This document shows positions 11,055 through 22,189 of a DNA stretch of 64,000 nucleotides, one piece after another (position 1 is the stretch's first letter; every line of letters starts with the position of its first letter). The stretch comes from Oscillatoria sp. FACHB-1407 (GTDB taxonomy: Bacteria; Cyanobacteriota; Cyanobacteriia; Elainellales; Elainellaceae). Location of the stretch: positions 124,001 to 188,000 of the forward strand of contig NZ_JACJSA010000003.1 in assembly GCF_014697545.1 (NCBI RefSeq), given 5' to 3'. The notes beneath the pieces are model-generated. The model searched no databases. It was not told the origin of the DNA and saw nothing but the letters and a program-made list of their open reading frames with translations. The position numbers were made by a program, and so were the translations under genes.

Positions 11055-12764
11055 TTACAGCGGTAAGTGCAGCGTAAAACAACTGCCTTGACCAACCGTA
11101 GATGTCACTGTAATGCTGCCCTGATGCAGATGAGCCAGTTTTTGCGCTAACACCAGCCCTAACCCTGTCCCTTCATATTTGCGACTGAGTCCGCTATCCA
11201 ATTGTTGAAATGCTTGAAACAATTTGAGTTGGTCATCGGGTGAGATGCCAATGCCCGTGTCAGTCACGGCAAAGTGTAACGTGCGATCGCTTTGAGTGAC
11301 ATCCAGGCGCACGGACCCAGCCTCGGTAAACTTGACCGCATTGGATAGCAAATTAAACAAAATTTGTCTGAGGCGGCGTTTGTCTGCTTTGCAGGTTGAA
11401 ACCGTTGGATCGAGTGTGAAACCGACCTGTAGCCCCCGATTATGGGCAATTTCTGAGATCATGCTGATGCAGGCTTCACAGATTTCTTTGACGTAAACGG
11501 TTTCAAACAGTAAATCCTCTTTGCCCGCCTCAATCTTGGATAAGTCTAACAAATCGTTAATCAGGTCTAGCAGGTGTTGTCCACACGACTGGACTCCTTG
11601 CACATACTGTCGTTGTTTGTCGTTTAGTGAGCCAAAAACCTCCTTTAATAACAGGCTTGAAAATCCCAAAATGCCGGTTAGCGGAGTTCTTAACTCATGA
11701 CTCATGTGGGTCAAAAATTCACTTTTGGCACGATTTGCCGTCTCAGAAATTTGCTTTTCTCGTTCTAATTCCTGAGTTCGTTTCTGGACGAGTTGCTCCA
11801 GGTACTCATAACTTTGAGCATTGGTGAGGGCGATCGCAGTCTGGTCGGCGATGCGCTCCAGTAAATGAATTTCAGCATCTGTAAAGGTGCGGGGAGTGTG
11901 CGTCATCAGCACCAAACCCCCAAACATTTCATTGCGAATGATAATCGGCACTCTTAAGAGAGACACAATTTGAGCGTCGATAATTTTTTGTAATCGCTCT
12001 GGCGGATGGGGCAAGTTTTGATAGTCGGGGGCGTGCAAGACGTTACGGATCCACAAGGGCGAGTCGGGATCGAGCACATCAGCCCACTGGGCAATCGGAA
12101 ATTGGGCGTGTTGCAGGGTGTACGCATCTTCCGTGGCTCGCCACTCGCAAACAATTTTGAAGTATTCTGTGTCGAACGAGGTGAGATGTACGCGATCGAC
12201 CTGAAAGCATTCCCCTGTCAGGCGGACAATCTTTTGCAAGATGTAATCAACATCCAGGCTGGAGTTCAAGGCTCGATGGATCTGATTCAGCAACTGTTCT
12301 TGCTCTGCCTGTTGCCGAATCTGCTCATTAGCAGCCTGCTGTTGTCGTCGTAAATCAAATTCGGTGAGCGATCGCGCCAACACCATCGGCAACCGAAACA
12401 GACGGTCTTTTAACACATAGTCTGTCATTCCTGCCTTAATGCACTCGACAGCCGCCTCTTCACCCAATGTGCCTGTGACGAGAATAAAGGGGATGTCTTG
12501 TTTAGACTGACGCACCAGATCGAGGGTTTTGTAAGCCGTAAACCCCGGCAGTCGATAGTCAGACAACACCACGTCATAACAGTGCGATCGCAACAATTGC
12601 TCGATCGCTAGCACCGTATCCGCCACATCATAGGAGAAATCGACTCCAGCTTGTTCTAAAGCCAACACCAGCAACTCCACATCAAACATAGAGTCCTCGA
12701 CAATGAGTAACCGTAGGGATGAGGATGTTGACATCGATGTAGCGGAACACGCTTCCATAACCAT
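11055..12764 (-). CDS. Receiver-GAF-histidine kinase hybrid
   Basis: 569 residues. A response-regulator receiver domain comes first (about 17-135), with acidic pair Glu23/Asp24, phospho-acceptor Asp69 in VLSDYRLPG and Lys119. A GAF domain follows (about 165-315), then a coiled coil. The HisKA domain has His356 in [12 protein letters not shown]. The ATPase domain has [10 protein letters not shown] (471-480), DTGIGIS (502-508) and GTGLGLV (532-538). A receiver in front of the kinase suggests control of kinase output by an upstream phosphorelay. The GAF domain may bind a small ligand; it lacks an obvious bilin-binding Cys in the usual place, so I do not call it a phytochrome-like photoreceptor. 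It follows the PAS kinase at 12988 on the same strand. Confidence 0.92.
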
Positions 12765-12987: not shown

Positions 12988-15258
12988 TCACACCTGATTT
13001 AAGGTGAAATAAAAGGTGGCTCCCTGGTTGACCTGGCTCTCTGCCCAAATGGAGCCACTGTGACGCTGCACGATGCGCTGGACGATCGCCAACCCGATAC
13101 CTGTGCCCTCAAACTCATGTTGTGAGTGCAACCGCTGAAACGCCTCAAACAGTTGATTGGCGTATTCCATGGGAAACCCTACCCCATTGTCCTTAATAAA
13201 AATAGCTCCTTCGACCGTAGTGCCAATCTTAATTTGAGCAGGGTGGCGATCGCGACTAAATTTGACCGCATTGCTAATCAGGTTGCTAAAGACCTGTTGG
13301 AGCAGGGTGCCGTCCCCCTCAACCGTTGGCAAATTCCCAATCTGATATTCGATTGAGCAGTCATCCTCAGGAGAGTGGAGATCAATTGCATGGTTCACTA
13401 ACTGGCGCAGGTCAACCGGATGCCTTTCCATCTTGTGTCGCCCCACTCGTGACAGGGTCAGCAACCCGTCAATCAGTAATGCCATCCGGTGAGTGCTGCT
13501 GTCAATATTGTTGAGGTAGTGGGTTACTTTGGGTGCGACCTGCTCGCCTCGCTCTAGCTGTTGCCGCAACGCACTGACAAAACCACGAATGTGTCGTAGA
13601 GGCGCACGCAAGTCGTGAGACACCGAATAGGAAAAGGAATCCAGTTCGCGATTGGTTTGCTCTAGTTCAAGGGTTTGTCGCCAGAGTGTCTGGCGCACCT
13701 CGACTAACTCTGTAATATCGCGAGAGGCACCGATCAGAGCGTAAACCTCACCACTGAAGCGTTTTAAGGGAATTTTAAAAGTGTCGAGATAGGGAGTGCC
13801 CGTCACCACCGCATACTTTTCCTGGAAGTGTAACGTCTCCCCCGTGGTAAATACTACCTCGTTTTGCTCGGCAAAAGCAGCGGCAATTTCCGCCGAAAAA
13901 CACTCAAAAATCGTCTTGCCTTCGACCTCATGCCGACTGTGAACGCCGATCGCCTGTGCCAGTGCGTCATTGCAAAATTGCATCCGCATATCATCTCGAT
14001 TGACCACAAAGATGTAATCGGGCAGAGCATTAATAAAGGTGAGCAATTCTGCGGTGCGTTGCTCGACTAATACCTCTAGATTGCGGTTCTGCCGTTCTAA
14101 TTGCTCATTGAGTTGACGAATCTCGTATTCTGCCTGGGTGCGATCGCTGACATCCCGACAATTCACCACCACGCCTGCAATCCTCGGTTCACTCAGTTGG
14201 TTGCTGCCCACACACTCTAGAATTGCCCAAGACCCATCGACTCGCTGAAAGCGAATCTCAACTTTGACCGGGGCGTCGGGTTGTTGTACAGCGGTGTAAA
14301 AAGCAGCTTGTGTCCGGGGGATATCCTCCGGATGAATCAACTCAAAGGCACTGCGCCCAATCAACTCTTCTGGGGCATAGCCTAAAATTGCTTTGACGGA
14401 GGGACTGACGTAGGTGCGGTTGCCATCAACGCCGACAACCACAATCATGTCTGAAGAATGCTGTACCAGAGCGCGAAATTGTGCTTCTCGTCGAGTCAAT
14501 GCCGTTTCTGTTTGCTGCCGCTCTGCTTCACTGCGTTTGCGATCGCTGATATCGCGAATAATCGCTAACACATCCTTTGTGCCACAGGCAACAATGCGGG
14601 CTTCAAAATCTTGAACGCGATCGGTGTCGTCCAATCGATATTCGTAGACTTGTACCTCCTGCGTTGTCAGGGCTTGCCGAATATATTGCACAGCCGTTTG
14701 AGCAATCTCAGTCGGTAAAACGTCCTCCAGGCGTTTGCCTAAAATCTCTGGCATTGGCTTAAACGCCTTGATCGCCTTCGACTCTAAAATGTCGAGGTAA
14801 ACTCCATCTTGACTCAAGCGAACCATCAAGTCCGGGATGGCGTTAAGTATTGCAGCTTGAGTGACTTTAGAGCCATTGTGAGTGGGTGATGCCACAATGG
14901 GCAGAACTCTAAACAACTCCCAGGTGAGGTAGGTTAAAATCCCTGCTGCTCCTGCCTGAACGAGTCCCACAATCCAGCTAAATGGATATTCTAATGTCCA
15001 GAGTTCTAAAATATGAGCCGTGCTCCAGGTGGCGAGAAACACCCCGAATAAACTGAGGATCTTGGCAAAAGGCAGATTTTGCTGCTGGCGTAAGGAGAGT
15101 AGAAGCAGTGGAATGGAGTAGCCCGCCAGAACGATCACTGTGTCTGAAATCGTTTGTAGCCAGACAAGGACAGTTTTCCAGCGATCGTCGTATCCCTGGG
15201 GTGGGACACTCGTCGCATCGAGTAACGTGGTTAAGAGCTCCAGCACGGGTTCTCTCAT
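12988..15258 (-). CDS. Membrane sensor kinase with ethylene-receptor-like N-terminus and three PAS domains
   Basis: 756 residues. Three hydrophobic helices (about 32-57, 63-88, 93-118) resemble the ethylene-binding domain of plant ETR1: TISDTVIVLAGYSIP matches its ISDFFIALAYFSIP, and FGVFLATWSTAHILELW matches helix 2. Asp39 and His82 correspond to Asp25 and His69 of ETR1, but the copper-ligand Cys65 is replaced by Trp78. Three PAS domains follow (about 130-240, 258-375, 402-515). The HisKA domain has His548 in SYSVSHDLRAPL. The ATPase domain has NLISNAVKFS, DNGVGFP and GTGIGLA. It is probably an autophosphorylating sensor of unknown signal. It lies 131 bp downstream of hetZ on the same strand. 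Confidence 0.88.
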   Translation of the reverse strand: MREPVLELLTTLLDATSVPPQGYDDRWKTVLVWLQTISDTVIVLAGYSIPLLLLSLRQQQNLPFAKILSLFGVFLATWSTAHILELWTLEYPFSWIVGLVQAGAAGILTYLTWELFRVLPIVASPTHNGSKVTQAAILNAIPDLMVRLSQDGVYLDILESKAIKAFKPMPEILGKRLEDVLPTEIAQTAVQYIRQALTTQEVQVYEYRLDDTDRVQDFEARIVACGTKDVLAIIRDISDRKRSEAERQQTETALTRREAQFRALVQHSSDMIVVVGVDGNRTYVSPSVKAILGYAPEELIGRSAFELIHPEDIPRTQAAFYTAVQQPDAPVKVEIRFQRVDGSWAILECVGSNQLSEPRIAGVVVNCRDVSDRTQAEYEIRQLNEQLERQNRNLEVLVEQRTAELLTFINALPDYIFVVNRDDMRMQFCNDALAQAIGVHSRHEVEGKTIFECFSAEIAAAFAEQNEVVFTTGETLHFQEKYAVVTGTPYLDTFKIPLKRFSGEVYALIGASRDITELVEVRQTLWRQTLELEQTNRELDSFSYSVSHDLRAPLRHIRGFVSALRQQLERGEQVAPKVTHYLNNIDSSTHRMALLIDGLLTLSRVGRHKMERHPVDLRQLVNHAIDLHSPEDDCSIEYQIGNLPTVEGDGTLLQQVFSNLISNAVKFSRDRHPAQIKIGTTVEGAIFIKDNGVGFPMEYANQLFEAFQRLHSQHEFEGTGIGLAIVQRIVQRHSGSIWAESQVNQGATFYFTLNQV

Positions 15259-15390
15259 GTTGTCTTTTGCCTGTTGGCATTCATCCTTGGCTTATCGCCA
15301 ACTGTACAAGCACCCAACCATCAACGATATGACAACTGACGATTGATAACTGACGATTGACGACGGACAAATCACGCTTGACTTCCAACC

Positions 15391-16638
15391 TTACGCTTTG
15401 TTGCGGAACTGCCATGCCAGTTCTAGTAATTTGACCCACCGCTTTTGTACCTGTTTAGGGGTGCAATTGAGGGCTTTGGCGATCTCTTCATCCGTACGCT
15501 GAGCCAGGGGGCGATCGCTCGCTTGCAGTCCCTTGAGGGATAACAATCGTTGCTGCTCTGGGGTGAGTTGCGCCAAAAAGGCTTCCCACTGTTGCTGCGG
15601 CATCCCTAAGTTTTGGTCAACATCAGCACCCAGCCATTGATGCACCAGTTGCCAGCGATGTGACCGAGCAAACTTCTCAACGTGATACTTAAACCGTTGT
15701 TGCAGATAGTCACGCTGACGAGCGGTCAGTCCTAAAATTTCATCAATTTCGGGCACCGACAAATCTTGCAGTTTTAACGTTAAGTAATCAACGCAATCAG
15801 ACTGACCCTGAGATTCCAGATACTGCACTAACTCGTTAATGACGCGATCGCGCAACACCGACTCCGAGGGATCAACCGCATCCGTCACCATCTGTTCGCG
15901 CACCTGTTGTGCCAGGGGCGATCGATTCTGCAATTCAGCTTCTTCGCTCTTGGCAGATTCCATCGCCATCTCGATATCCATTGCGGTTTCGACGGGTTGG
16001 CGACGGGCAAATCCCTGGGCTCGCAACACAATCAACTGTTGACTGCGGCGACCGGGCAACGTGATGCGGCGTTTGGCATAGTGCTCTGTGAATGCCATAT
16101 ATTCCGCCAGTTCCAACCGGGTTTTGGGCGTATAGCTATCGGGCAATTCGTTTTCCCGACGAAACGCTTTCATCACCTCAATGTAGAAGCTTTGCAAGAA
16201 GTCTTCGATCAAGTTATAACGAGCTTGAAACCCAAGTTGTGCGCGGCTAGAGGCAACATGGCGGTAGACCATGGCACTCAGGCTGCTGTGTAAATCGACC
16301 CTGCCTCGGCGAGAACCGAGCTTGTAGTAGGCTAAACATTTTTGCTGACGATGCCGTGCTAGCGTGATTTGCCAGTTTTGAACCTGCCCTGATGTTTGAA
16401 TGCGATCGCTCTTAATACAAATCCGAATCACTTCTGCGGCAAGGCGTTGTGCTACCACAGTCATGCTCGCGGTGCTATCGGGCAACTCTGTGCGAAATTC
16501 ACCCAACAGAAATTGGGTCAGTTTGTCGCGTTGAAGCAGTGTCTGAGCCTCGGTGGCAGCGCAAGTGTCGGCTGCATTGGAGGAGGTGTTATGGTCACTA
16601 TGGCTTGATCCGGGTGGATTTAAGGGTTCGACGTTCAT
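15391..16638 (-). CDS. hetZ: HetZ-type regulator
   Basis: 415 residues. The sequence matches my memory of HetZ from Anabaena over nearly its whole length. Landmarks include RIQTSGQVQNW, LGSRRGRVDLHSSL, EYMAFTEHYAKRRI, ESQGQSDCVDYL and LTARQRDYLQQRFKYHVEKFA. The C-terminus (EEIAKALNCTPKQVQKRW) looks like a helix-turn-helix of the sigma-4 type, which fits a DNA-binding role. In Anabaena HetZ acts with HetR and HetP early in heterocyst differentiation; homologues also occur in filamentous species without heterocysts, so its presence does not prove heterocysts here. The first 45 residues are low-complexity and may be an extension. No patU gene follows. Confidence 0.85.
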   Translation of the reverse strand: MNVEPLNPPGSSHSDHNTSSNAADTCAATEAQTLLQRDKLTQFLLGEFRTELPDSTASMTVVAQRLAAEVIRICIKSDRIQTSGQVQNWQITLARHRQQKCLAYYKLGSRRGRVDLHSSLSAMVYRHVASSRAQLGFQARYNLIEDFLQSFYIEVMKAFRRENELPDSYTPKTRLELAEYMAFTEHYAKRRITLPGRRSQQLIVLRAQGFARRQPVETAMDIEMAMESAKSEEAELQNRSPLAQQVREQMVTDAVDPSESVLRDRVINELVQYLESQGQSDCVDYLTLKLQDLSVPEIDEILGLTARQRDYLQQRFKYHVEKFARSHRWQLVHQWLGADVDQNLGMPQQQWEAFLAQLTPEQQRLLSLKGLQASDRPLAQRTDEEIAKALNCTPKQVQKRWVKLLELAWQFRNKA

Positions 16639-17126
16639 GGTGGGTAGAGCACAGGGTAGAGGTAGAGACAGCCTGGAAGGAAACCGGGGAAACTGAGGAC
16701 GGAGTCAACATCATCAACATGAGCCTTTGTAATGGTGCAGAGGGCATTGCCTGACGTGACTGGGTTGTTTGGCAACCCTCCTGCACTGGCGTGTGTTTCC
16801 TTCCCTGACTGTCATAACTGTCTACACCTCAATTTTTAAGGACTACGGTGAACTCTCTCCGCTGCTATGGCAGTTTCTCAGGTGGTTTGCCAATCGCTCG
16901 ATTTATTTTCAGGCTAACGGTGCATGGGTGGGGTGAGCGATCGCCTCTAACCCTTATTCCATCTACCCTCACTCGCTTGAGCAACGATATGCACTGGTTC
17001 CTCTGACTGCGGTTCTGTCCTTTCGGGTTGGTGGACAGTCTAGCATCTGGATCGGCTATCCGTTGCCTTCTCATCTCAAAAAACAGGTCGTTCCTGTGGT
17101 TCTGCCTCGCTACTTGCATTCTCTGG
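16639..17126. other. Upstream region of hetZ, no gene
   Basis: 488 bp without a supportable gene. It holds an inverted repeat with arms GGGTTG and CAACCC separated by 5 bp at 16762-16778, about 125-140 bp before the hetZ ATG. The remainder shows nothing recognisable. Confidence 0.6.
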
Positions 17127-17786
17127 TTAGCCTGCCTCGACTGCCCACGATGGCACCGATTCCCACCCCAAGCCACGCCGGACAAGCACTGGCTCATCCG
17201 TAGTCAAATCTAAAATCGTAGAGACGTGATACGTCAGATCAAGCCCATCGTCGATAATCACATCAACTAATTTCTCAAAGCAGTCAAACAACTCCGCTTT
17301 TGAGACACGGTCACTCTTGCGAATTTCCATCTCTACATCATCCGTAGGGTTTGCCGAGGTCGAAATGATCGGATTCTCCAACGCGCCTAGCAATGCCTGA
17401 CAAATGGCATGGTCGGGAACGCGAATGCCAGTCGTTTTCCGTTTCGGGTTCATCACCAACTTCGGCACTAGCTTGGTTGCAGGGAGGAGAAACGTAAACG
17501 GACCCGGAATCAGCCGACGCATAATTCGGTATGCACTGTCAGTGACTGCCGCATAGTGGGCGATGTTTGACAGGGATGAGCAGAGAAATGTTAAAGGTTT
17601 ATCATTAGACAATTGTTTAATCCGTCTGACCCGCTCTATGGCGGCTTTTGAATTCATGTCACAGCCAATCGCATAGACTGTATCAGTGGGATAAAGCATG
17701 ACAGCACCCTCACGCAGCGCACCTCTAACATGTTCTATCTCACGAGTCTGAGGCGTATCCGGATGGATTGTGTAAATTGTTGCCAT
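17127..17786 (-). CDS. Sua5/YciO/YrdC family protein (threonylcarbamoyl-AMP synthase-like)
   Basis: 219 residues. The YrdC fold is marked by GAVMLYPTDTVYAIGCD, then KQLSNDKPLTFLC, IPGPFTFLLPAT, GIRVPDH and ISTSANPTDD. These include the KxR-type and SxN motifs that bind nucleotide and threonine. TsaC/Sua5 members make L-threonylcarbamoyl-AMP for the t6A base of ANN-decoding tRNAs. This length without a C-terminal Sua5 domain, and KQLSNDKP, fit the YciO branch, whose own role is less certain. The gene is divergent from larC with only 62 bp between the two starts, so promoters must overlap. Confidence 0.87.
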   Translation of the reverse strand: MATIYTIHPDTPQTREIEHVRGALREGAVMLYPTDTVYAIGCDMNSKAAIERVRRIKQLSNDKPLTFLCSSLSNIAHYAAVTDSAYRIMRRLIPGPFTFLLPATKLVPKLVMNPKRKTTGIRVPDHAICQALLGALENPIISTSANPTDDVEMEIRKSDRVSKAELFDCFEKLVDVIIDDGLDLTYHVSTILDLTTDEPVLVRRGLGWESVPSWAVEAG

Positions 17787-17848: not shown

Positions 17849-19393
17849 ATGACAAAGATTGCCTATCTAGAATGTCCGACGGGTCTTGCAGGAGATATGT
17901 GCCTTGGGGCATTAGTTCACGCCGGGGTGCCCCTGGACTATCTAGCAGAGAAATTAAAGCCGTTAGGCATCTCCCATGAATACCGCCTATGGGCAGAGCT
18001 GGTTCATCGTAACGGGCAGCAAGCTACCAAAGTCCACGTCGAGTTACTGTCTGAACCAAAGCATCGAATATCCGCTGAGGAGGGGGTCGATCCACACACG
18101 ACTTTTGCCCACCATCTCCATAGTACCAAGAGCAACTCTATCCAGCACACTCATACACACGACTCGCAACACTCGCACTCCCATTCCAGTGACCACAACC
18201 ACGAGCCGCATGAAACCGACCACGGGCACAGCCGTCACCTGCCCGAAATCGAGCAACTCATTCGAGCTGCCCAGTTGCCACCGCGAGTAGAGGCTTGGAG
18301 TTTAGCCGTGTTTCGTCGGTTAGCTGAGGCAGAGGGAGCCGTTCATGGCATCTCCCCCGACCAAGTGCATTTTCATGAAGTGGGAGCCACGGATGCGATC
18401 GTCGATATTGTTGGGACTTGCCTGGGGTTAGACTGGTTGGGCATTGAGCAAATGTATTGCTCCCCCATGCCAACGGGGGGTGGAACCATCCGGGCAGCCC
18501 ATGGACAACTGCCTGTACCCAGTCCTGCGGTGTTGAAACTATGGGAAATGCGGCAGGTGCCGATCTATAGCAATGGCATTCAACGAGAATTGGTGACTCC
18601 AACCGGAGCCGCGATCGCCACTACCCTGGCTACCGATTTTGGCGCACCCCCCACCATGACCCTACAAAAAGTCGGCTTGGGGGCAGGCTCTCGTAACCTA
18701 CCGATTCCTAATATGGTGCGATTGTGGATTGGAGAAGCAGCAGGAGAAGAGAGAAGAGAGAAGAAAGAAGAGAGAAGAGAGCCGCAGTTCAGAGAGCAGG
18801 AAAAACATGAAGCGAATAGAGTAATCCCTGGCTCTGGAACCGCCGACCTGCAAGAAACGATCGCAGTACTCGAAACTCAGATTGATGATCTCAATCCGCA
18901 GGCGATCGGGTATGTGATGGAGGCGTTGTTTGCAGTAGGGGCAGTGGATGTATTTACTCAGGCGATCGCCATGAAGAAATCCCGTCCGGGTCTATTGCTG
19001 AATGTAATCTGCCACCCCGATCAGATTGAAGCGTGTGAGTCTTTGATCTTTCGGGAAACAACCACGCTTGGCATTCGTCGCTCTATGCAACAACGAAGCA
19101 TCTTGCAGCGTATGATCCAAACCGTACAAACGCCCTATGGTGAGGTCAGGGTTAAAGTAGCGTGGCACCGGGGATCGCTGACCAACGCTCAGCCTGAATA
19201 TGAAGACTGTGCGGCGATCGCTCGCCAACACAATATCCCGTGGCGAGAGGTTCACCGATTAGCGCAACAAGCGTGGCACAAACGGCAGGCCATCACCGAA
19301 CAAGAGGTTAATACAGAGAAGAATACAATGACCGATGCGACGGCTAATACAACGATGGCTAGTACAACAATGGCAGGCGAGATGACTGCTTGA
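17849..19393 (+). CDS. larC: LarC, nickel-pincer cofactor cyclometallase
   Basis: 514 residues of the DUF111/LarC family. LarC inserts nickel into the pyridinium pincer cofactor used by lactate racemase and related enzymes, with CTP. Landmarks are the start YLECPTGLAGDMCLGAL, FHEVGATDAIVDIVGT, PTGGGTIRAAHG, ELVTPTGAAIAT and, in the second half, ETQIDDLNPQ and KKSRPG. A His-rich insertion at about 83-130 has 16 histidines and probably handles nickel. A charged linker at about 298-320 is encoded by a purine tract (about 18735-18785). LarC1 and LarC2 are in one frame, with no ribosomal frameshift needed. No larB, larE or larA is in the window. The last 35 bp overlap the convergent gene. Confidence 0.93.
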   Translation: MTKIAYLECPTGLAGDMCLGALVHAGVPLDYLAEKLKPLGISHEYRLWAELVHRNGQQATKVHVELLSEPKHRISAEEGVDPHTTFAHHLHSTKSNSIQHTHTHDSQHSHSHSSDHNHEPHETDHGHSRHLPEIEQLIRAAQLPPRVEAWSLAVFRRLAEAEGAVHGISPDQVHFHEVGATDAIVDIVGTCLGLDWLGIEQMYCSPMPTGGGTIRAAHGQLPVPSPAVLKLWEMRQVPIYSNGIQRELVTPTGAAIATTLATDFGAPPTMTLQKVGLGAGSRNLPIPNMVRLWIGEAAGEERREKKEERREPQFREQEKHEANRVIPGSGTADLQETIAVLETQIDDLNPQAIGYVMEALFAVGAVDVFTQAIAMKKSRPGLLLNVICHPDQIEACESLIFRETTTLGIRRSMQQRSILQRMIQTVQTPYGEVRVKVAWHRGSLTNAQPEYEDCAAIARQHNIPWREVHRLAQQAWHKRQAITEQEVNTEKNTMTDATANTTMASTTMAGEMTA

Positions 19394-21523: not shown

Positions 21524-22189
21524 TTATGAAGCCTGGAGGTGAACCTTAGCTTCTTGTGCGACGGTTTCTACTTCATCATTTGCTAATACTTCCAACACAG
21601 CGAGAGCTTGCGGATGGTTGAGCCGACCCAAGGCTTGAGCGACCCGATAACGAATTTGGGAGTCTTGATCAGAGGCGTAAGGAATGAGGAGGGGCAATGC
21701 ACGACTATCCCCCAGTTCTCCAAGGGAACCTACGGCTGCTGTCCGGATTAATTCATTGTTGGACTCCAGAGCCGATTGCAATAACTCAAACGAGCGTGGA
21801 TCACCCAACTCCCCTAGTGCCGCGATAATGCTAAATTGCAACAGCCACTCCGAGGAACTCTGGTAGATCGTCTGCAAGTCCTCATAGGCTTCTTTTAATT
21901 GCAGTGCCCCAATTGAATCAGCAGCAGCTGCCTGAACATCAACCTCTTTGTCATTTAGTAAGCGATCGCGCAAGATGGTTAATGATTTGTGCAGATCTTG
22001 CTGCCCCAATGTCGCTAGTTGGCTGATTGCCGCATAACGAACCCGTGCATTGGGGTCATTTACTGCCGTTTGAATCATGTCAAAGGCGATCGTCGGTTCT
22101 AACTGACGCAGCTGATTAATAGCCGTGAGCCGTTGACCATAATCGTCTGAGGTCAATAGTTGTTGAACAGATTCAGGCGTAACAGTCAT
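21524..22189 (-). CDS. nblB: HEAT-repeat protein, NblB-like
   Basis: 221 residues, built almost wholly of HEAT-like repeats: DYGQRLTAINQLRQL, ARVRYAAISQLATLG, VDVQAAAADSIGAL, QFSIIAALGELGDPRS, IRTAAVGSLGELGDSRA and IRYRVAQALGRLN. This pattern and length fit NblB, related to phycobilin lyases of the CpcE/F type. NblB is needed for phycobilisome breakdown under nutrient stress and may detach or bind bilins. The tandem nblA genes at 38.7-39.1 kb would act in the same process. HEAT proteins are similar to each other, so the fold is certain but the NblB name is probable only. It lies 71 bp after the start of... the upstream CBS gene's stop, on the same strand. Confidence 0.7.
   Translation of the reverse strand: MTVTPESVQQLLTSDDYGQRLTAINQLRQLEPTIAFDMIQTAVNDPNARVRYAAISQLATLGQQDLHKSLTILRDRLLNDKEVDVQAAAADSIGALQLKEAYEDLQTIYQSSSEWLLQFSIIAALGELGDPRSFELLQSALESNNELIRTAAVGSLGELGDSRALPLLIPYASDQDSQIRYRVAQALGRLNHPQALAVLEVLANDEVETVAQEAKVHLQAS

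Follow-up and report, generated by a model that had tools for sequence, protein, structure and literature searches.

A HetZ-related paralogue of Oscillatoria sp. FACHB-1407 with two predicted C-terminal domains resembling sigma-70 region 4

Introduction

The closest described relatives of the gene studied here are the members of the HetZ superfamily, for which NCBIfam holds three models: HetZ (NF037963), HetZ-related (NF037964) and HetZ-related protein 2 (NF037965, here HetZ_rel_2). In Anabaena, HetZ is the product of alr0099 (PMC2821919, Table 4), and hetZ and patU are described as a gene pair in PMC11298460 and PMC7377430. Table 4 of PMC2821919 also includes alr0202 as one of 10 filament-core genes, among which that paper lists hetR, hetZ and patU3. 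DIF1 promoters need hetZ, directly or indirectly, according to PMC7377430. In PMC6133370, DIF1 is placed at -35, together with a special, non-SigA -10 element; because both are needed, a sigma factor such as SigC, SigE or SigF is suspected there for the DIF+ promoters.

Here we analyse a window of 64,000 nucleotides of Oscillatoria sp. FACHB-1407, the whole stretch of DNA under study, in which an initial annotation made from the sequence had noticed a HetZ-type regulator without patU, next to a membrane sensor kinase. Sigma-70 region 4 is the domain that binds the -35 element. What is new in this analysis is that two C-terminal domains of the putative regulator resemble this region, both in predicted structure and by profile comparison.

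A HetZ-related paralogue beside a separate HetZ

The gene is an open reading frame of 415 codons with an ATG start, encoding 415 aa on the minus strand, which the initial annotation had left unstated (Table 1). The frame and its place in the HetZ superfamily hold, whereas the assignment to HetZ proper does not. Against the HetZ-related model the protein scores 645.9 bits (E 1.9e-194), passing the cut-off of 612, and against the HetZ model 505.7 bits (E 6.2e-152), failing the cut-off of 550. By these profile scores, the similarity to the HetZ family is far above chance.

The gene is also not the HetZ of this genome (8.13 Mb, 66 contigs), where a separate, true hetZ with a patU-like gene was found at locus L002. 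Its product scores 666.1 bits, above the HetZ cut-off, and is 56% identical to the 415-aa protein over query residues 39-413. This hetZ overlaps by 8 bases a gene for a 346-aa protein, homologues of which follow HetZ in 30/30 loci searched, the own locus included (the 30 best-scoring of the 55 HetZ genomes in our sample). No NCBIfam model names the 346-aa protein; we call its gene patU-like from its place and from the published hetZ-patU pair. A third paralogue, HetZ_rel_2, is encoded at locus L003 (955-2088) and scores 603.1 bits.

Table 1. Features of the HetZ-related locus; positions refer to the window, residues to the 415-aa protein
Feature	Coordinates	Strand	Basis or remark
HetZ-related protein gene, NCBIfam NF037964	15391..16638	-	ORF, profile and tree
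Residues 30-107: helical, sigma region 2-like (weak)	16318..16551	-	VIA-align, ECF profile, hhalign
Residues 109-192: three further helices, no assigned fold	16063..16314	-	predicted model
Residues 193-256: low-confidence linker	15871..16062	-	block pLDDT 37-53
Residues 262-326: sigma region 4-like helix-turn-helix domain 1	15661..15855	-	VIA-align and profile
Residues 347-415: sigma region 4-like helix-turn-helix domain 2	15394..15600	-	VIA-align and hhalign
PAS histidine kinase, ETR1-type N-terminus	12988..15258	-	not conserved with HetZ-related
Receiver-GAF-HisKA-HATPase hybrid kinase	11055..12764	-	directly behind HetZ-related in L006 and L008
tsaC/sua5 (L-threonylcarbamoyladenylate synthase)	17127..17786	-	TIGR00057, 217.9 bits
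larC (nickel pincer cofactor), often beside tsaC	17849..19393	+	TIGR00299, 221.5 bits, and synteny

A phylogenetic tree of 98 rows (68 HetZ-related, the 415-aa protein included, and 30 HetZ; not included are the HetZ_rel_2 row, one duplicate HetZ and 13 HetZ-related rows that were nearly identical) split HetZ-related from HetZ with 100/100 support, with the 415-aa protein outside the HetZ clade. The initial annotation had held that membership in a HetZ-related paralogue group with no developmental role would count against it; the tree places the protein in the HetZ-related paralogue group, which may or may not have a developmental role. A first tree with HetZ_rel_2 as the outgroup gave a support of 62, owing to the long branch of the outgroup. 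The rows nearest to the 415-aa protein are those of loci L008, L007 and L006, two of which come from Leptolyngbyaceae assemblies.

On the strength of profile and tree, the 415-aa protein is a HetZ-related paralogue, a sister protein and not HetZ itself, and belongs to a conserved group already covered by a curated model. It passes the cut-off of that model at full length and shares the clade and the tsaC neighbourhood of the group; nothing notable sets it apart from the other members, and the kinase behind its gene is peculiar to its own lineage. With HetZ it shares the identity given above and a full model that can be aligned, but it differs in falling into a separate clade, in lacking patU and in scoring under the HetZ cut-off. 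HetZ_rel_2 is homologous to HetZ-related (hhalign probability 99.8%, 301 columns) and likewise has two region 4-like domains, but is distant from it and also occurs in some genomes without HetZ. The Anabaena orthologue of HetZ-related may be alr0202.

Distribution in cyanobacteria

The distribution of the family was surveyed in 244 genomes of the phylum, which are related and do not count as independent trials. HetZ was found above its cut-off in 55/244 genomes and HetZ-related in 53/244, in 49 of these 53 above its own cut-off and in the other four at 569-609 bits, compared with 549.5 bits for the best HetZ. All 53 HetZ-related genomes have HetZ, so that 53 of the 55 HetZ genomes carry both. 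Because HetR is present in 52/53 of the HetZ-related genomes and HetP in 34/53, the distribution of HetZ-related resembles that of HetR and HetZ more closely than that of HetP, as judged from gene content. The suggestion of the initial annotation that the locus shows a use of HetZ outside heterocyst development may hold in this wider sense. The distribution also agrees with PMC2821919, where hetR, hetZ and patU3 are counted among the filament-core genes.

There are few departures from these patterns. Two HetR genomes lack HetZ (G058 and G083), and one HetZ genome has no HetR match (G229). In G048 and G051, HetZ is kept and HetZ-related was not found; G051, a single contig of 3.8 Mb, is a natural deletion of HetZ-related worth comparing. 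HetZ_rel_2 was detected in three genomes with no match to HetZ, HetZ-related or HetR (G005, G105 and G111; loci L180, L184 and L187), and the HetZ_rel_2 branch may therefore be older than the HetR circuit.

Genomic neighbourhood

Upstream of the HetZ-related gene, 488 bp from its start codon, lies tsaC. Among the 73 loci with enough sequence, 67 carry tsaC on the same strand and at most 1.5 kb upstream; no tsaC is seen in four of the remaining six, and the last two carry it at a distance of 4-7 kb. On the downstream side, the initial annotation was right that patU does not follow, as it does in HetZ loci: the next same-strand gene is a kinase, and no patU-like sequence was found near HetZ-related in any of 80 loci (each 4-17 kb long).

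The annotation was also right to call this kinase ETR1-like. The protein of 756 aa, encoded on the same strand and starting 132 bp downstream of the HetZ-related gene, combines ETR1_N (PF25487; 66.9 bits, cut-off 27) with PAS domains, HisKA and HATPase_c, and is predicted to be a membrane protein from the ETR1_N match. Ethylene receptors have a copper-ligand pair of Cys and His in a C-x3-H motif. The kinase has the His (His82) and lacks the pair, with Trp78 in place of the copper-binding Cys, and so it probably does not sense ethylene.

The inference drawn from this kinase, that the link would be a clue to how HetZ is used, fared less well. Among 36 genomes of the same family, in each of which 29 candidates were scored, the kinase is found at full length (E<=1e-150) only in the own genome; two further matches cover residues 234-755 only and lie on contigs without HetZ-related. 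In L006 and L008 the hybrid kinase (Table 1) follows HetZ-related directly, so it was probably only in the lineage of this genome that the ETR1-type kinase was inserted or retained. In L007, part of the same hybrid kinase stands behind HetZ-related before the contig ends. Elsewhere, the downstream genes, ten of whose products were named by Pfam, encode PAS kinases (L034, L040, L042 and L051, with a response regulator next in L034), Ser/Thr kinases (L009, L010, L018 and L062), a polyphosphate kinase (L011) and, in other loci, other proteins. The pairing of HetZ-related with the kinase, unsupported by both the family-wide survey and the synteny of the 80 loci, was dropped, and the kinase is regarded as an incidental neighbour outside the proposed system.

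A promoter scan of positions 15200-17200 found none, and the same interval holds one terminator-like site, compared with 1.8 expected. The exact DIF1 sequence TCCGGA does not occur between tsaC and the HetZ-related gene; in the whole window it occurs 15 times (14.0 expected) and GGGN5CCC 17 times (11.7 expected), both within the shuffle range. About 5 kb from the HetZ-related gene, at 21524-22189, the window encodes the phycobilisome degradation protein NblB (NF045915, 346.3 bits).

Predicted structure

An AlphaFold model of the 415-aa protein, built with 56 sequences (mean pLDDT 75.9, pTM 0.47), shows a confident helical N-terminal domain (residues ~35-192), a weakly predicted linker (~193-256) and then the C-terminal domains. 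A Foldseek search of the full model against the PDB gave no match under E 0.001 (best 0.085), and of the 50 listed among its 136 matches, 45 bear titles of sigma factors or of chains from RNA polymerase or transcription complexes. VIA-align of the full model, a second look at the same Foldseek candidates, aligned residues 262-326 to region 4 of SigD (3vfz_A; Z 8.2, 1.8 Å, 61/62 residues aligned) and residues 347-415 to WhiG (7lq4_A; Z 7.5, 1.4 Å, 62 aligned), with the program warning that a Z under 8 may reflect a common arrangement. Alignments across several domains reached a higher Z, but with an rmsd of 16-23 Å they are of little use. The region 4 fold, a sigma-70 trait, is thus seen in the predicted model only, at residues 262-326 and 347-415. 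DesR, a protein of LuxR type, is among the matches of the last domain too (Z 6.7), and in the model the region 4-like helix-turn-helix domains look like those of LuxR type as well.

Residues 30-197 folded alone with high confidence (pLDDT 92.2, pTM 0.87). Foldseek of this N-terminal domain found no significant match and no sigma factor among 48 rows. In VIA-align, the third and fourth of 200 candidates are ShbA (Z 6.4, 74 residues, 2.6 Å) and sigma-28 (Z 6.1, 70 residues, 2.6 Å), both aligned to model residues 1-78 and both in the Z range that the program calls common for helical folds; the two candidates above them, an SRI domain (Z 7.7) and an arginyl-tRNA synthetase (Z 6.6), are unrelated. 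The likeness of the modelled N-terminal domain to sigma region 2 is suggestive only.

Sigma factor profiles

None of the curated sigma cut-offs is passed by the 415-aa protein, which scores 28.8 bits against TIGR02937 (sigma70-ECF; cut-off 42.9), 17.3 against Pfam Sigma70_r4_2 (25.7) and 15.5 against Sigma70_r4 (24.1). Across the family, TIGR02937 matched 25/30 HetZ (best 2.4e-7, 30.5 bits) and 34/56 HetZ-related proteins (best 8e-7, 28.8 bits) at E<=1, to be read with the weak, HTH-only matches that it gives to many short frames; no scanned protein of either group passed its cut-off, the best reaching 30.5 bits. At E<=10, Sigma70_r4_2 matched 28/30 HetZ (best 1.4e-6) and 24/56 HetZ-related proteins (best 1.2e-6), and Sigma70_r4 matched 35/56 HetZ-related proteins. 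Of the ten proteins shown with bits for Sigma70_r4_2, none passes (best 25.6, E 9.8e-6); from the two best E-values, at least one HetZ and at least one HetZ-related protein would therefore pass. Sigma70_r2 was not among the matches listed for the 415-aa protein, nor among those listed for the family (25 families each for the 30 HetZ and the 56 HetZ-related proteins). In the reverse direction, hmmsearch of PDB sequences with the HetZ-related profile gave four weak matches only (E at least 0.052), none to a sigma factor.

A profile was built from ECF-size sigma factors, 20 in all, taken from the own genome and its relatives; at E<=10 and with filters off, it matched 59/88 family proteins, compared with 6/88 reversed ones. 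It produced 45 region 2 stretches; among the 15 listed, 14 fall where HetZ residues ~3-68 align (0.3-9.2 bits) and one falls elsewhere (-1.9 bits). In several proteins these stretches are near HetZ residues 24-64, inside the segment that VIA-align matched to sigma-2. In 11 of 21 HetZ_rel_2 proteins, the profile matched region 2 (~107-130), region 4 (~215-273) and again region 4 (~319-353) in order, with the region 2 parts very weak (-2.3 to 3.9 bits).

Comparison by hhalign with the 20 ECF-size sigma factors was controlled with 100 column-shuffled profiles. At full length, HetZ, HetZ-related and HetZ_rel_2 scored 44.2, 38.2 and 48.1, against shuffle maxima of 24.0, 24.6 and 28.4, and 0/100 shuffles reached any of these scores. 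Those of HetZ and HetZ-related stem from the last domain alone (44-46 columns), and the HetZ_rel_2 alignment runs through regions 2 and 4. Sub-windows, picked after the matches had been seen, scored 24.2, 41.1, 45.5 and 38.9 for region 4, against shuffle maxima of 19.4, 26.4, 20.0 and 16.2 (0/100 in each case); the last two are the two windows of HetZ_rel_2, and the first, residues 262-326, aligns over 16 columns with a probability of only 37%. Residues 347-415 align to ECF sigma-4 with a probability of 94.6%. For region 2, the windows scored 18.0 and 20.8 (probabilities 6 and 18%), against shuffle maxima of 17.0 and 16.4; HetZ-related residues 50-112 came out just above 100/100 shuffles, and the scores of wider N-terminal windows were reached by 3/100 and 1/100. 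A sigma-2 segment at residues 132-197 was rejected, as 20/100 shuffles scored as high. Profiles of group 1/2 sigma factors were also set aside, being near noise (hhalign probability at most 2%; 17 proteins matched compared with 9 reversed; best domain E 0.081 compared with 0.16 in reversed proteins).

Region 4 in the HetZ family is, at the level of models and profiles, well supported. Region 2 is weakly supported, with the structure and profile methods giving one register; judged by eye, the region 2 residues that bind the polymerase clamp are not obviously kept.

A possible sigma-70 origin and its alternatives

Because the 415-aa protein passes no curated sigma cut-off, we describe it as built like a sigma factor and do not classify it as one. 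With ECF/sigma-70 factors such as SigD, SigW, WhiG and ShbA it shares the region 4 fold, present twice, and its possible region 2-like segment sits in the right order; it differs from them in the second region 4 domain, the three extra helices and the long linker. On balance, we lean towards HetZ-related being a very divergent, sigma-70-derived promoter-recognition protein, a paralogue kept with HetZ and HetR independently of patU and of the kinase. On this reading, the region 4-type domains would read -35 elements, residues 30-107 would derive from region 2, and the protein would act together with RNA polymerase on promoters, either as a sigma subunit or as an activator resembling one. HetZ, as a homologue, would act in the same way on DIF1 promoters, and the promoters served by HetZ-related would be a different set, linked to filamentous growth.

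A bolder version, which we put forward tentatively and consider rather doubtful, is that HetZ, HetZ-related and HetZ_rel_2 form an unrecognised, highly divergent family of cyanobacterial sigma factors, in which HetZ reads the TCCGGA -35 element and the special -10 of DIF+ promoters and HetZ-related a second promoter class of filamentous species. In either form, a sigma-like build could explain the published HetZ dependence of DIF1 promoters (TCCGGA at -35). Should the HetZ family prove to be sigma-derived, the suspected sigma factor and the requirement for HetZ, two lines of work on DIF+ promoters, would come together in a single protein, and the companion of HetR and HetZ that is so far named only HetZ-related would gain a molecular function. 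Of the present results, it is the sigma-like build of the whole family that deserves pursuit, as a testable idea of how HetZ acts. No published link of HetZ to sigma factors or to HetZ paralogues was found among the literature matches listed, which do not include the central HetZ papers, and novelty is not claimed.

The same domains could instead belong to an ordinary DNA-binding transcription factor, in which a helical N-terminal domain unrelated to sigma factors is followed by two helix-turn-helix domains of the broad sigma-4/LuxR type and the target is operators, not core RNA polymerase. We think this possible without thinking it probable. The N-terminal domain alone has no significant PDB match and finds unrelated proteins in its two best VIA-align rows, the last domain is matched by DesR, and the protein is under every sigma cut-off, all of which such a factor would lead one to expect. 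It would account less readily for the recurrence of two region 4 domains in HetZ_rel_2 with strong profile scores, for the weak region 2 signal that precedes the region 4 domains in sigma order, and for a published target motif that, in PMC6133370, lies at -35 with a special -10.

Alternatively, HetZ-related might be a spare HetZ with the same target promoters, partnered in trans by the PatU made at the hetZ-patU locus, as its identity of ~56% to the own HetZ and the joint presence of the two proteins in 53/55 HetZ genomes would allow. We consider this unlikely: HetZ-related is a deep clade that is conserved separately and has a gene neighbourhood of its own, and an identity to the 415-aa protein of 60-74% across 55 loci of varied families, picked out of 80 fetched, argues for a function of its own. 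A signalling pair made up of the HetZ-type regulator and the adjacent membrane kinase is, in our estimate, highly improbable. The two genes are on the same strand and 132 bp apart, and kinases with an identity of 45-54% (over 396-602 aa) lie downstream in 8/80 HetZ-related loci; against this, the full-length kinase is confined to one of the 36 genomes of the family, the nearest relatives carry another kinase in its place, the neighbours vary widely, and NCBIfam and Pfam profiles found no receiver domain in HetZ-related.

Other Het genes of the genome

The initial annotation had proposed to search the genome for hetR, hetP, patS and nif genes. Two HetR-family genes, a patX-like frame and nifD (above its cut-off) were found, and no HetP-family match was found in the genome; heterocyst formation is therefore doubtful, as judged from these genes. 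The first HetR-family gene scores 588.2 bits (HetR cut-off 489). The second, at L005:1273-2241 on contig C5, is divergent and scores 382.3 bits, below the same cut-off; more than one HetR-family match occurs in only three of the 56 HetR-bearing genomes sampled, one of which has the second gene in two pieces. The PatX-like small frame, at L004:2537-2737 on the minus strand, lies upstream of the first HetR-family gene (hetR); it has 65 codons and a hydrophobic start and ends in ...HRGSGRRTSCTS, with RGSGR near the end.
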